From Candidatus Moraniibacteriota bacterium (GTDB lineage: Bacteria; Patescibacteriota; Minisyncoccia; CAIUEV01; JAHKAQ01), in assembly GCA_014729795.1 (NCBI GenBank), contig WJJI01000045.1, positions 1 to 55,291 on the forward strand: DNA of 55,291 nt, written 5' to 3'. The notes below the pieces were generated by a model that did no database searches, had not been told where the DNA came from, and saw nothing but the letters and a program-made list of their open reading frames with translations. This document shows, one piece after another, positions 36,466-55,291 of the stretch; position 1 is the first letter of the stretch, and each line of letters opens with the position of its first letter. Made by a program: the position numbers and the translations under genes.

Positions 36466-37962
36466 CTAGTACATTTCTTTAATTTCGATATCCGTGTAGT
36501 AGTGTTCAAGAATATCGTCGTAATCCTCGCCATCTTTAGCCTGATTTAATGCTCCGGTTGCCGAGACTCCCACCATGTGGTTGCCGGGGATGCTACCTGC
36601 GTTTGGAACTTTACCCCAGGGATCAGAAACCGATTGACAGTAAGGGTGGTTGGTGCCTCCCCAGACTTCCTGCCATGATCTAGTGCGACCATCTGTACTT
36701 GAAGAGTACGGAGTCCAAACCGGTTCGTTATCGTAAAGCACCATCTTGCCCCAGGTTTTCTCTGCTCCTTCTCTTATGCGAGGATGATCAACTTCCCAAT
36801 CATAACCATAATATATTTGATTACCGGCAGTGGTATCGATATCAAAGCCTTTTTCTTGGTTAATTACTCCGCTAATTTTCTTTTTGTAACCATATGTTCG
36901 ATATATAATTGTCATTAATTTATTATACTCCATGGGGCCGGTTCCTGTAATTTCTCCCATCCCCCAAGTATAGTGTTCTAAAGGTAAAATATTTATAGCC
37001 CAAACTTGCTTGTGTGGGCTGCCCGTATAATGAATTTGAATTCTTCCTCTGTAGTCATCAAAATTCTTAGGCTCAACATGAAAAATCATATTTTCATGAT
37101 TACCATCTTTGGCTTCAAAATTAACATCTTGATCCAATAAAATTTCATCAATACTATCGTAAACCCTTAACTTTCCATCACCATCATATTTTACCTTGGT
37201 TCGTTCATCTTTGTTAATGGTGGCAATTAAACGCCCATCTTTATCTTTAATGACATAATCTTTATTAGCGGTAATTCTCATTGAGTGGTCTTTTGAATAA
37301 GACTTATCATATCCCAGAATCCCCACCCGTATTTCCGGGCCTAAAGATTGTTCCTGATTAGAGTTAGGGTCTGATCCCCATTTTTCAATCACTAGATTTT
37401 TTTCTTTCTCGGATGCTGTATAGAAATGAGAACTGTAAACCGGCGACCAAAATCTATGAATGGCAGTTGTGCCCGTTTTGTATCGGGGATAAACATAAAA
37501 AATAATTCCCTCAAGGTGCCATATATTACTCCATTGCTTAATTACTGTATTTTTTTCCTGCTCGGAAGCGGTGTAAAAGTGACGGCTATAGACCGGCGAC
37601 CAAAAGCGATAGACCGGCACCGTTCCGGTTTGATGCTTTGGATATACGTAATAATTAACCCCTTCCAGTCGCCAAATATCTCCCCATTTCTGCTCGACAA
37701 TACTCTTTTCTTCTTTTGAGGCAGTATAAAAATGTCCACCAAGACTCTCTGACCAAAAGCGATATACAGGCACCGTGTTAGGTTGTTGGCTTTGAAAACT
37801 ATAAAACATTTTCCCTTCATAGTCCCAAATAGCCGCTGAAACTTCTTTGTTAAATAAACCAAAAAATGCTAAAATGAAAAAAAGAGCAAAAATCAAAAAT
37901 TTTATTTTTATAATTTTTTTATTTGTTTTGGATTTATTAATGTAATTTTCTCCTATAGTCAT
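36466..37962 (-). CDS. exported SpoIID-like protein with three DUF5648 repeats
   Basis: Signal segment (about residues 18-43), then three repeats of about 50 residues (64-108, 114-159, and a shorter third from 165) with the motif VYRFWSP-x3-RHFYTASEQEK and a W-x-LEG-x-YVYP ending, the DUF5648 pattern. From about residue 208 follows a SpoIID/LytB-like domain with ILPLEHYTWGMGEITG, in which the Glu of MGEIT is at the position of the catalytic Glu of SpoIID transglycosylases. Expected to work at the cell wall, the repeats probably binding wall or glycan. A DUF5648 unit also ends the subtilase at 45979-47496. Confidence 0.82.
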   Translation of the reverse strand: MTIGENYINKSKTNKKIIKIKFLIFALFFILAFFGLFNKEVSAAIWDYEGKMFYSFQSQQPNTVPVYRFWSESLGGHFYTASKEEKSIVEQKWGDIWRLEGVNYYVYPKHQTGTVPVYRFWSPVYSRHFYTASEQEKNTVIKQWSNIWHLEGIIFYVYPRYKTGTTAIHRFWSPVYSSHFYTASEKEKNLVIEKWGSDPNSNQEQSLGPEIRVGILGYDKSYSKDHSMRITANKDYVIKDKDGRLIATINKDERTKVKYDGDGKLRVYDSIDEILLDQDVNFEAKDGNHENMIFHVEPKNFDDYRGRIQIHYTGSPHKQVWAINILPLEHYTWGMGEITGTGPMEYNKLMTIIYRTYGYKKKISGVINQEKGFDIDTTAGNQIYYGYDWEVDHPRIREGAEKTWGKMVLYDNEPVWTPYSSSTDGRTRSWQEVWGGTNHPYCQSVSDPWGKVPNAGSIPGNHMVGVSATGALNQAKDGEDYDDILEHYYTDIEIKEMY

Positions 37963-45978: not shown

Positions 45979-47496
45979 TCATTCGTACCAGGCCACTCCT
46001 TCATACTGCCAAATATCCGGCCAAGTTGAGATAATATGATTTTTTTCTTGTTCAGAGGCGGTAAAAAAATGACTGGTATAAACCGGACTCCAAAAGCGGT
46101 AAGTTGGCTTTTTTTCAATATTTATATTGGCTAGAATTTGATAGGCGTTTAGTCTTCTTGAAGACACTACTTTATTTTCTAAATTTGAAACATAGTCGCT
46201 AAAATCTTTAATACTTTCTATTATTTTCTTTGAACTAATATTGGGATGTTTTGAATACAGCAACCCGACCATACCGCTAACAAAAGGAGCGGCAAAAGAG
46301 GTGCCTGAATAAGCAGCATAAGTGTCATTGGAGCTAAGATCAACCGAGGTTGATGTAATAACTTCACCCGGAGCGGCTATATCAACTGTTGTTTTGCCAT
46401 AATGTGAAAAACTTGCCAATTCATCATCGCTATTACTGGCTGCCACGCATATATTATTGCTCAAACTATAACTACATGGATAAAAATCCTCTTGATCATT
46501 GTCTCCGGTGTGTCCGGGCGTTTGGTTTCCCGCTGCTGTTACAAAAATGCCATTAAAATCAGCAATCGCATCCATCTCTGATTGGCTGAAACCATAACCA
46601 CCATAACTAGCATTAATAACTTTGGCTTGGTTTTTTTTAGCAAAATTAATCGAATCAATTATTGCCGACATTGACAAGTATAAATCTCCAGCCCTTAAAG
46701 CCATGATTTTTAAATTATTTTGATAACTGAATCCACTTATTCCAATAGAGTTATTTGTTTCCGCTCCAAAAATACCGGCAACTACAGTGCCGTGAATATT
46801 TGTATTATAAAATGGGTCATCATCTCCATCATAAAAATCCCAACCATGATTTGGGCAAGTGGATGAATTTCCCAGTAAATCAACACAAATATTACCATTC
46901 CACATATTATTTATTAAGTCTTCATGGTCATATTTAACGCCACTGTCAATCATCGCAACAATTACCTCTTGGTCGCTAGTTGTTTCCAAATCCCAGGTTT
47001 TTTTAATATCCACATCGTGGTCATTACTGTTTTCAAGGCCCCATTGGGATGAAAAAACCGGATCGTTAACCGTGAAATGAAGTTTTCTAATATAATTTGG
47101 TTCTGCGTATTCAACCGCAGAATTTGATTTGTAGTCTTCCAATAAATCTTTTGTGCTTTTGTTTTTGTTTTTTACAACAACCGCATTTATATTATCGTGT
47201 ATTTTTGATACTTGATCATCTTTTTTAATTATTTTTTGTTTTTCCAGTAATTCTTTTGTTTTTCCAGTAATTCTTTCAGCGGTTTTTGTCTTCTCTTTTT
47301 CCAGTGTTTTTTTGATATTAAATTTCTTGGACTTTAATTTTATAATTACCTCTCCTTCAATGTATTCAGGAAGTTTATTTTTTTTGTTTGAATCTTCGGC
47401 AGAGGCTTTACAGCTAAATATATAAAAAAAACAAAAAAAAGTAGCAATAAGTATTAATACTTGAAAATGTCTTTTATTTATTGATTTTTTGATCAT
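45979..47496 (-). CDS. exported subtilisin-like protease (S8) with DUF5648 repeat
   Basis: Secreted serine protease. Signal or lipobox-like segment (about 13-33), an I9-like propeptide (about 45-140) ending at YAEPNYIRKL, then the catalytic domain. The triad is D184 (AMIDSG), H235 (NIHGTVVAG) and S400 (YSGTSFAAP), with oxyanion N324 (AAGNQT). A single DUF5648-type repeat (YRFWSPVYTSHFFTASEQEK) forms the C-terminus, the same module as in the SpoIID-like protein. The start overlaps the upstream gene by 23 bases. A 20-bp tandem duplication lies inside the propeptide coding region. Confidence 0.9.
   Translation of the reverse strand: MIKKSINKRHFQVLILIATFFCFFYIFSCKASAEDSNKKNKLPEYIEGEVIIKLKSKKFNIKKTLEKEKTKTAERITGKTKELLEKQKIIKKDDQVSKIHDNINAVVVKNKNKSTKDLLEDYKSNSAVEYAEPNYIRKLHFTVNDPVFSSQWGLENSNDHDVDIKKTWDLETTSDQEVIVAMIDSGVKYDHEDLINNMWNGNICVDLLGNSSTCPNHGWDFYDGDDDPFYNTNIHGTVVAGIFGAETNNSIGISGFSYQNNLKIMALRAGDLYLSMSAIIDSINFAKKNQAKVINASYGGYGFSQSEMDAIADFNGIFVTAAGNQTPGHTGDNDQEDFYPCSYSLSNNICVAASNSDDELASFSHYGKTTVDIAAPGEVITSTSVDLSSNDTYAAYSGTSFAAPFVSGMVGLLYSKHPNISSKKIIESIKDFSDYVSNLENKVVSSRRLNAYQILANINIEKKPTYRFWSPVYTSHFFTASEQEKNHIISTWPDIWQYEGVAWYE
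47237..47276. repeat. 20-bp perfect tandem duplication in the subtilase propeptide
   Basis: TGTTTTTCCAGTAATTCTTT occurs twice head to tail. As 20 is not a multiple of three, the protease gene reads the two copies in different frames (RITGKT and KELLEKQ). Loss or gain of a copy would shift the frame and cut off the protease domain. Confidence 0.85.
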
Positions 47497-48163: not shown

Positions 48164-48192
48164 AAAAACCCCACAATAATCGTGGGGTTTTT
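48164..48192. terminator. strong bidirectional terminator
   Basis: Perfect 11-bp stem, AAAAACCCCAC (48164-48174) with GTGGGGTTTTT (48182-48192), and a 7-base loop. It follows the decapeptide-repeat gene on the minus strand (stop at 48218) with an A run before the stem that becomes the T run in that direction. Confidence 0.8.
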
Positions 48193-48217: not shown

Positions 48218-49438
48218 CTAAGGGCAGGTTGTGCTTGTAATAATTCCGCCTTCGACTTGAACAGTGCAAGCTGATCCGCCGTTATCTGTTAAATTTAGAG
48301 TTCCCGTTAATCCACCACTTCCACCAACTCTAAACCCTGCTTGAGCATCGACAAATCCGGTTGTGTCAATATTAATACCGGCAGCTAAATGGGTACCTGA
48401 AACCGCTTCGTCGTCTAACTCATCAGCGGTAATTGCATTGGTAGCAATATCATTAGCTGTTAGACTGTTATCGATAACATGGGTTGTGTCTACAGAGTTT
48501 GGCGCTAATTCATCTGTTCCTATTGCATTGGTAGCAATATCATTAGCTGTTAGACTGTTATTGATAACATGGGTTGTGTCTACAGAGTTTGGCGCTAATT
48601 CATCCGCTCCCACCGAATTTGTATCTAAATCGGCTTGAGTCAAAGAATTATTAATCACATGTACCGAATCTACCGAATTATCAGCTAATTCAGCGTAACC
48701 AACGGCATTATCTCCAATATCAGCCTGAGTTATTGTTTCATCCATAATATCTATTGACTCAACGCTATTGTTCATAATATGAGTAGATGCTACCGAATTA
48801 TCAGCTAATTCAGCGTAACCAACGGCATTATCTCCAATATCAGCCTGAGTTATTGTTCCGTCCATAATATCTATTGATTCAACGCTATTGTCCGCAATAT
48901 CAATTGATCCGATGGTGTTATCCATAATATCTATTGATTCAACGCTATTGTCCGCAATATCAATTGATCCGATGGTGTTATCAGCAATATTATCAGATGG
49001 TCCAGCGGAACCAGAAATTGCATTAGCGCTTAAATCATGAGGTCCTACGGTTCCGTCCATAATATCCATTGATTCTATACTATTGTCCGCAATATCAATT
49101 GATCCGATAGTGTTATCCACAATATCCCCGGAATCAATTGTATTGTCTAATGGAATTACTGTTCCCGGTTTTAAGTGTTTGCCTTCGATGGTGTGCTCGT
49201 CGATATGATAACCGGTGATAATATCTTCTAGATCAGCTTCATCATCTTCTTCCCGAAAATTATCTTCGATGTGATCCTCGGCAATTTCCTCAATCGCTTT
49301 TCTTTGATATTTATCGGGAAAGTATGATTTCCATCGACTGGAGTAAGCTTGCGTTTGGTTTGTCGCTACCAACAGAACGCTTACTATTAGAGTCCCCAGA
49401 GAAAGTAATTTTGCGATTTTTTTTGTACTTGTTTTCAT
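48218..49438 (-). CDS. exported decapeptide-repeat surface protein
   Basis: Signal peptide (about 1-31), acidic helical N-terminal part (35-75), then roughly 25 tandem repeats of about 10 residues (about 85-345). Examples are DNTIGSIDIA, DNSVESIDIM, DNAVGYAELA and NNSLTANDIA: Asn/Asp-x-[TS]-[VI] turns followed by a D-[IL] strand. This should build a regular beta-solenoid. A short C-terminal domain (about 355-406: GFRVGGSGGLTGTLNLTDN, two Cys) resembles head regions of phage-tail or autotransporter stalk proteins. It has a near-consensus promoter, a ~130-base leader and a strong terminator, so it may be highly expressed. No enzyme motif; adhesin or stalk is the likely role. Confidence 0.8.
   Translation of the reverse strand: MKTSTKKIAKLLSLGTLIVSVLLVATNQTQAYSSRWKSYFPDKYQRKAIEEIAEDHIEDNFREEDDEADLEDIITGYHIDEHTIEGKHLKPGTVIPLDNTIDSGDIVDNTIGSIDIADNSIESMDIMDGTVGPHDLSANAISGSAGPSDNIADNTIGSIDIADNSVESIDIMDNTIGSIDIADNSVESIDIMDGTITQADIGDNAVGYAELADNSVASTHIMNNSVESIDIMDETITQADIGDNAVGYAELADNSVDSVHVINNSLTQADLDTNSVGADELAPNSVDTTHVINNSLTANDIATNAIGTDELAPNSVDTTHVIDNSLTANDIATNAITADELDDEAVSGTHLAAGINIDTTGFVDAQAGFRVGGSGGLTGTLNLTDNGGSACTVQVEGGIITSTTCP
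48432..48611. repeat. 90-bp tandem duplication in the decapeptide-repeat gene
   Basis: Bases 48432-48521 recur almost unchanged at 48522-48611 (three decapeptides). The few differences include one transition in the TCGATAACAT / TTGATAACAT stretch. Near identity at synonymous sites points to a recent duplication. Confidence 0.85.
48671..48980. repeat. nested 120-bp and 60-bp duplications in the decapeptide-repeat gene
   Basis: 48671-48790 is repeated with few changes at 48791-48910 (period 120, four decapeptides), and 48861-48920 recurs at 48921-48980 (period 60). All periods are multiples of 30, so the repeat count can change without breaking the frame. Confidence 0.85.
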
Positions 49439-49573: not shown

Positions 49574-49601
49574 ATTTTATTTAATTTAACAAAATTGTCA
49601 A
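49574..49601 (-). promoter_or_regulatory. promoter of the decapeptide-repeat gene
   Basis: Minus strand: perfect TTGACA (49601-49596), 16-base spacer, TAAAAT (49579-49574). Same arrangement as the fbp operon promoter. The leader to ATG 49438 is about 130 bases and holds the two DnaA-box-like sites. Confidence 0.65.
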
Positions 49602-54162: not shown

Positions 54163-55291
54163 TTATTTTAATTCTAAAACCTCCCAACCCTTCAAAGATT
54201 TATCATAAGAATATTTTGCTTTGCGGTTTATTTTCCAGCCATTTGGTCCGTCTTGCACAACAATACCGCCGTCAAAATTTTTCTTTCCTTTTAACCACGC
54301 TTGCAATGCTTCGGCTTTATATTTAGTGTCTTTACTTTCAGCAGTAAAGCCAGCTTTAGTATCAACAATATATACTTTATTTTTTGTTTGAATAATCCAG
54401 TCGGGATAAAAAAGTTTTTCGCGATTTTCATCGGGATTATAATAAGGAATAGAAAAATGTTCACTTCCTGAATCGCCGTTTTTATGCCACCATACGATAT
54501 TTTTATTTTTGGGCGACTCTAAGAATTCAATAAATTTCTTTTCATTCACGCCTCCGAACATTCCACCTTCAATCCAAAACGGCTCCATTGCTGATTTTTT
54601 AACTGAAAGTTTTTCATATTGATCCGTGAAAAATAAAGCATCTCTCGGCACATCAATACGCTCAATACGCTTGGCGCGAGCAGCTTTTTTATTTACTTCC
54701 TTTTCACGAACAGGGCGATATGAAAGCAAAGCGTCGCCGATAATTGGAGCAAGCTCGCTTGCTGGGCTGGCTAAATCATTGACAATGATTTTATAAACTT
54801 CACTGCGATCAGCTTTAAGTTTATTCATTAAATAAACATTTAATGCGGTTTTTAATTTCCCCCATGAACGCTCAGGCGCAAATTTTTTGTTTTCATCGGT
54901 TTGCTTGGCAATTATCTTAAAACACAGCAAATTATAAAGTCGCTCAAGATCATGCCGAGACATTTCTTCGTCATGACTTCCACCTTCTTCAAAAAGCTCT
55001 TTGGTGAAATTATCATAATCATCAATTTCAACACCCACAATTAAACCGTTAGTGATTTTAGGTTTTAAATTCAGCCTTTTAGTATCAAGCTTTTTGTCTG
55101 CAACATTCTTGAATGTAATCTGAAATGTATCGCCAAGATCATTATAATCGGCACGAGTCATAAAAACTGATTCCAATTTAATAGGCTTTACATTTTTCTT
55201 GCGATAACTGCCGTTTATGGCTGGGCGATTTTCTGTCTTTGATTTTGCGTATTCGGCTAATACTTCGTTTCGTTTATAATTTGTATATAAA
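54163..55291 (-). CDS. type III restriction Res-like helicase-nuclease, C-terminal part (partial)
   Basis: The frame stays open from the window edge (NYKRNEVLAEYAKSKTENR...) to the stop at 54163, so at least 375 C-terminal residues are present and the start lies beyond the window; the internal TTG and ATG near 55176 are not the real start. The end carries a PD-(D/E)XK-type nuclease pattern: WWHKNGDSGSEHFSIPYYN, FYPDWIIQTKNKVYIVDTKAG (PD...D-x-K), then a helical GKKNFDGGIVVQDG. This is the C-terminal endonuclease region of Res subunits of type III restriction systems and related DEAD/DEAH helicases. The helicase part and any Mod methylase are outside the window. Confidence 0.75.
   Translation of the reverse strand, partial: LYTNYKRNEVLAEYAKSKTENRPAINGSYRKKNVKPIKLESVFMTRADYNDLGDTFQITFKNVADKKLDTKRLNLKPKITNGLIVGVEIDDYDNFTKELFEEGGSHDEEMSRHDLERLYNLLCFKIIAKQTDENKKFAPERSWGKLKTALNVYLMNKLKADRSEVYKIIVNDLASPASELAPIIGDALLSYRPVREKEVNKKAARAKRIERIDVPRDALFFTDQYEKLSVKKSAMEPFWIEGGMFGGVNEKKFIEFLESPKNKNIVWWHKNGDSGSEHFSIPYYNPDENREKLFYPDWIIQTKNKVYIVDTKAGFTAESKDTKYKAEALQAWLKGKKNFDGGIVVQDGPNGWKINRKAKYSYDKSLKGWEVLELK

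Follow-up and report, generated by a model that had tools for sequence, protein, structure and literature searches.

Does the ten-residue repeat protein encoded at this locus form a surface fibre of changeable length, or does it have another origin or role? We addressed this question for a 406-residue protein encoded in the window, the 55,291-nucleotide stretch of DNA analyzed here, which is the whole of one contig of a draft genome (1.08 Mb, 50 contigs, 93% complete; Table 1). A search for uL30 gave no match in this draft genome and a match in 13 out of 14 control genomes; together with the small genome, its apparent absence would fit Patescibacteria. As set out below, the best reading of the sequence is a surface fibre, that is, a putatively exported and tail-fibre-like stalk, which we hold with moderate confidence, and its most likely form appears to be a stalk on the cell surface with a changeable length.

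Table 1. Features of the repeat-protein locus, in window coordinates.
Feature	Position	Strand	Basis or remark
Repeat-protein ORF, 406 aa, ATG start	48218..49438	(-)	Putatively exported pentad/decad-repeat protein
Candidate signal peptide or membrane anchor, aa 1-31	49346..49438	(-)	By-eye reading; helix at aa 5-31 in low-confidence model
N-terminal domain, aa 32-92	49163..49345	(-)	Common to paralogue on contig C41 (47% identical here)
Repeat stalk, aa 93-352: 26 decads = 52 pentads	48383..49162	(-)	Self-identity, pentad analysis
Half-decad insertion, about aa 143-147	48998..49012	(-)	Decad register shifted, pentad register kept
60-bp tandem duplication (20 residues)	48863..48982	(-)	20/20 codons identical
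120-bp tandem duplication (40 residues)	48671..48889	(-)	30/33 codons identical
90-bp tandem duplication (30 residues)	48434..48604	(-)	26/27 codons identical
C-terminal end, aa 353-406	48221..48382	(-)	Possible cap or head; two Cys among the final 20 residues
Intrinsic terminator, 13-bp stem then T-run	48164..48192	(-)	z = -4.29; 0/200 shuffles as stable
Promoter-like site TTGACA-16-TAAAAT	49574..49601	(-)	Weak evidence; 11/12 vs consensus

The first 31 residues, read by eye, consist of a K-rich start and a hydrophobic stretch ending in TQA-Y, and this signal-type N-terminus supports export of the repeat stalk that was originally predicted. Inspection by eye revealed neither a cell-wall sorting motif nor a lipobox, and no membrane segment at the C-terminus, which leaves the anchoring of the protein uncertain. 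The C-terminal end matches no Pfam family and has no match in the phage records. In several repeat proteins (L002:1474-2307, L015, and L063), the C-termini carry a similar pattern, Cys-x(n)-Cys-[DN]-G-x-x-W, and these C-termini match no Pfam family above its cut-off. The terminator that had been predicted downstream of the gene is present. The 'strong promoter' is weakly supported: the promoter-like site exists, but a match as good as this was equalled in about 2.5% of Markov simulations of the AT-rich spacer, and promoter-like sites are no more frequent in the region than in shuffles (22 versus a shuffle mean of 19.3), such that a promoter is weakly indicated.

To the repeat itself, the prediction had assigned about 25 units of ten residues. 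Direct reading divides the stalk into 26 tens with one half-decad slip, and amino-acid self-identity peaks at multiples of ten (0.32, 0.30, 0.44, and 0.34 at lags 10, 20, 30, and 40, versus 0.03-0.14 at other lags). At the DNA level, Tandem Repeats Finder returned periods of 60 bp (48861-48982, 100%), 90 bp (48432-48604, 98%), and 120 bp (48670-48891, 97%), all of them multiples of 30 bp, as had been stated. At the codon level, the near-identical blocks scored 20 (20/20 codons identical), 24 (26/27), and 24 (30/33), whereas synonymous resampling reached at most 11 with the codon usage of neighbouring genes and 15 with that of the gene itself (2000 resamplings each). Because this codon identity lies far above the resampling maxima, the blocks are recent DNA copies, beyond what a conserved protein alone would explain, which bears out the claim that blocks of two, three, and four repeats were copied almost without change. 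Part of this near-identity could be an assembly artefact, with the repeat number in the draft wrong by collapse or expansion, as the draft is split over 50 contigs and repeat arrays of 120-220 bp would be near short-read length. We consider this improbable, since the frame is kept, the blocks differ in length (three lengths in all), and in two of the three the copies are set apart by distinct substitutions.

Within each decad, a shorter unit emerges. The pentad centre is I, L, V, M, or F in 50 out of 52 pentads, a count reached in none of 10,000 shuffles, and hydrophobicity has a period of five residues (spectral power 38.4; none of eight further periods exceeded 2.3). The pentad register runs unbroken through the half-decad slip, at which the decad register shifts, and since the pentad but not the decad register survives this insertion, the sequence speaks for a structural unit of five residues. 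The pentad period also suits a secreted or envelope-bound pentad solenoid that serves as a structural spacer or scaffold, like secreted pentapeptide repeat proteins, and has no adhesive role; profile searches of solved chains matched DotG repeats and designed pentapeptide solenoids, which likewise speaks for such a spacer or scaffold. Against it stand the strict pentapeptide consensus [STAV][DN][LF], which occurs in 1 out of 52 pentads (longest run 1), and the lack of any pentapeptide Pfam hit for the window protein, and we regard this explanation as rather unlikely. The same two results led us to reject membership in the pentapeptide repeat superfamily, for which the consulted part of PMC8145042 gives a criterion of at least eight contiguous consensus pentads. 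Membership in the Pfam Decapeptide family (PF25296) was also rejected, as the repeat region has no match up to E 10 (curated cut-off 45 bits). In a 17-row alignment of the repeat, three rows match Pentapeptide_4 and three match Decapeptide, and the window row matches neither. In this genome only the C15 protein matches PF25296, below the cut-off; the repeat locus on that contig (L123; G000:C15:105-296) belongs to a separate protein with pentapeptide-like repeats followed by an unrelated long region.

The proposed beta-solenoid fold agrees with the hydrophobic pentad period, but structure prediction did not reinforce it. AlphaFold gave a mean pLDDT of 40.0 for the 406-residue protein as a single sequence and of 47.2 for the repeat region with the 17-row alignment, and Foldseek returned no match better than E 0.6. 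In twelve decads of the 17-sequence model, each decad contains, at this low confidence, a single strand of six residues. Since high-scoring models are usual for true pentapeptide solenoids, the low pLDDT could reflect an obligate oligomer or a different fold. The profile searches of solved chains also matched orf16 (9eg4), for which we found no paper naming 9eg4 in the open-access literature, and the P-SCSP1u fibre (8i4m). As the latter is resolved in its N-terminal part only, going by the section of PMC10575957 that was available, no solved structure of the decads is established. We dropped the SU10 fibre (7z4b) as a model for the decads since its match was weak; its tip is likened to that of the T4 long tail fibre in the excerpt seen of PMC9509320. 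A knotted solenoid from Brevundimonas was set aside as a parallel, as it concerns short dimeric proteins of one bacterial group (PMC13123833, available to us in part). Taken together, the sequence is probably that of a pentad beta-solenoid or a trimeric beta-fibre.

The strongest family matches of the protein are to phage tail fibres (phrog_892, E 1.7e-28, in six stretches; phrog_28766, E 2.7e-16), so that the repeat-fibre part of the original prediction is supported as sequence kinship. In tblastn searches, 49 phage records matched, including cyanophages, Arthrobacter phages, and Alteromonas phages, their best places all being below 60% identity, and no match extended over 80% of the query; 6 plasmid records matched. 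This kinship raises the question of whether the gene is a phage-derived tail fibre, either a remnant or captured gene without host function or one used in phage-like particles, and several repeat proteins of the phylum (L013, L016, L018, and L020) indeed resemble prophage fibres on visual reading. Several observations at the locus argue against such an origin. The window protein has a signal-type N-terminus, which, to our knowledge, virion proteins as a rule lack, and its open reading frame is intact with its own terminator. Nine out of ten neighbours (41.8-55.2 kb) have no phage structural family, and the tenth (54163-55176, (-) strand, 337 residues) has a weak partial match to the phrog_218 head-closure family (E 1.9e-5) and no Pfam family at E 0.001. 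Nearby genes encode glycosyltransferases, an exported subtilase, and a Wzt-type polysaccharide exporter ATPase. We also noted that a subtilase and a SpoIID-type protein (45979-47496 and 36466-37962, both on the (-) strand) each carry the accessory domain DUF5648. Finally, a paralogue with the same N-terminal domain (277 residues, contig C41) adjoins lgt. This paralogue, which likewise has a signal-type N-terminus, is 39% identical to the window protein over 179 residues; it keeps the N-terminal domain (47% over aa 32-92) but has about 9 decads versus about 26, and it contains no recent codon copies above the threshold used. We therefore think a phage remnant or particle component unlikely.

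To place the putatively exported stalk among its relatives, we compared searches with the full protein, the N-terminal domain, and the repeat. No full-length relative was found in 54 other related genomes, and no second genome of the genus is among the 55 genomes searched. The full protein matched in 12 out of 285 other genomes when 286 genomes of the phylum were searched, and the repeat profile (A4) matched in 9 out of 382 other genomes of the class and 17 out of 378 others of the phylum, two samples that overlap in part. The same profile found 32 loci in IMG/VR viral contigs. A search for related loci returned nothing in genomes or viral contigs with the full protein and nothing in genomes with the N-terminal domain, which had no other credible match in 383 class genomes. 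Two weak matches to this domain were dropped: the open reading frame in G116 reads by eye as a glutamine-fructose-6-phosphate aminotransferase, and that in G211 is unlike the domain. Among the phylum repeat proteins that were read, many begin with a signal or a single membrane segment and have their repeats outside (for instance L011, L015, L062, L063, and L083). One of them, L011 (G512:C23), appears to unite in a single protein a decad stalk, a membrane segment, and what look by eye like two MerR-like helix-turn-helix motifs. We found no paper describing the decad repeat in Patescibacteria in the open-access literature.

How readily such stalks change in length can be judged in part from other repeat genes. 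Near-exact codon copies occur in 11 out of 64 repeat genes (chosen by motif from the fetched loci, with overlaps removed), and 10 of the 21 copied segments lie at multiples of ten residues and 11 elsewhere. In L009, a locus of another genome, two copies of one module are 328 and 348 residues apart, which is a difference of exactly two decads. The annotated genes of the phages P-SSP2 and P-SSP3, which share the same tblastn query range, measure 3,888 and 3,039 bases (annotation lengths, unaligned). Within each of two other groups of phages, the gene with the repeats does not differ in length: it measures 12,801 bases in all three Arthrobacter phages and 7,728 bases in both DSS3_PM1 and DSS3_VP1, and this fixed length in two sets of close phage relatives counts against general rapid change. 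Overall, the sequence makes length variation of the stalk plausible.

We propose that the N-terminal signal would take the protein out of the cytoplasm, and that the uncleaved signal or the domain at aa 32-92 might hold it at or near the membrane. The roughly 52 pentads would then stack into a rigid beta-rod with the small C-terminal end away from the cell. Slippage or recombination between the near-identical blocks could make this rod longer or shorter with the frame intact, as the repeat unit measures 5 or 10 residues and every recent copy is a multiple of 30 bp, and the stalk may serve in contact with other cells or surfaces. According to the parts consulted of PMC10633639 and PMC11665869, those Patescibacteria that have been cultivated live on other microbes, a lifestyle for which the one studied by transposon screening requires multiple adhesins. 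If the genome belongs to Patescibacteria, a stalk that resembles a tail fibre and whose repeat number can be adjusted would be a concrete candidate for contact with other microbes. More speculatively, the small-genome bacteria of this phylum may have taken over a phage tail-fibre repeat as a surface contact fibre, whose reach would be adjusted as pentad blocks are gained or lost in frame and whose length would differ from cell to cell or strain to strain as a trait of host contact; we put this forward as a doubtful extension. The pentad analysis offers a simple rule to recognize such stalks, as current Pfam models miss the window protein.

Compared with known systems, the window protein has no trimeric autotransporter adhesin anchor: no YadA-type anchor family is among the Pfam hits up to E 1, and the short C-terminus, in which no membrane segment is visible by eye, is unlike such an anchor. 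With pentapeptide repeat proteins, which form a right-handed quadrilateral beta-helix, it shares a hydrophobic residue at every fifth position over its 52 pentads, but its pentad centres are L or F in 11 out of 52 and mostly I or V. The repeats of DotG/IcmE likewise have a ten-residue unit in which two pentads each have a hydrophobic centre; as DotG belongs to a secretion system, the likeness is one of pattern only. The tail fibres of PHROG 892, 28766, and 21412 share the decad N-[ST]-[IV]-x-x-x-[DK]-[IL] and long arrays within a fibre protein, whereas the window gene is cellular, has a signal-type N-terminus and an N-terminal domain absent from the phage matches, and is about 25-30% identical to them. 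The surface-type decad proteins of the phylum have other N- and C-terminal domains, and most are without recent duplications, yet some of them, such as L015, L062, L063, and L083, have the same order as the window protein, with the decads placed after a signal or membrane segment.
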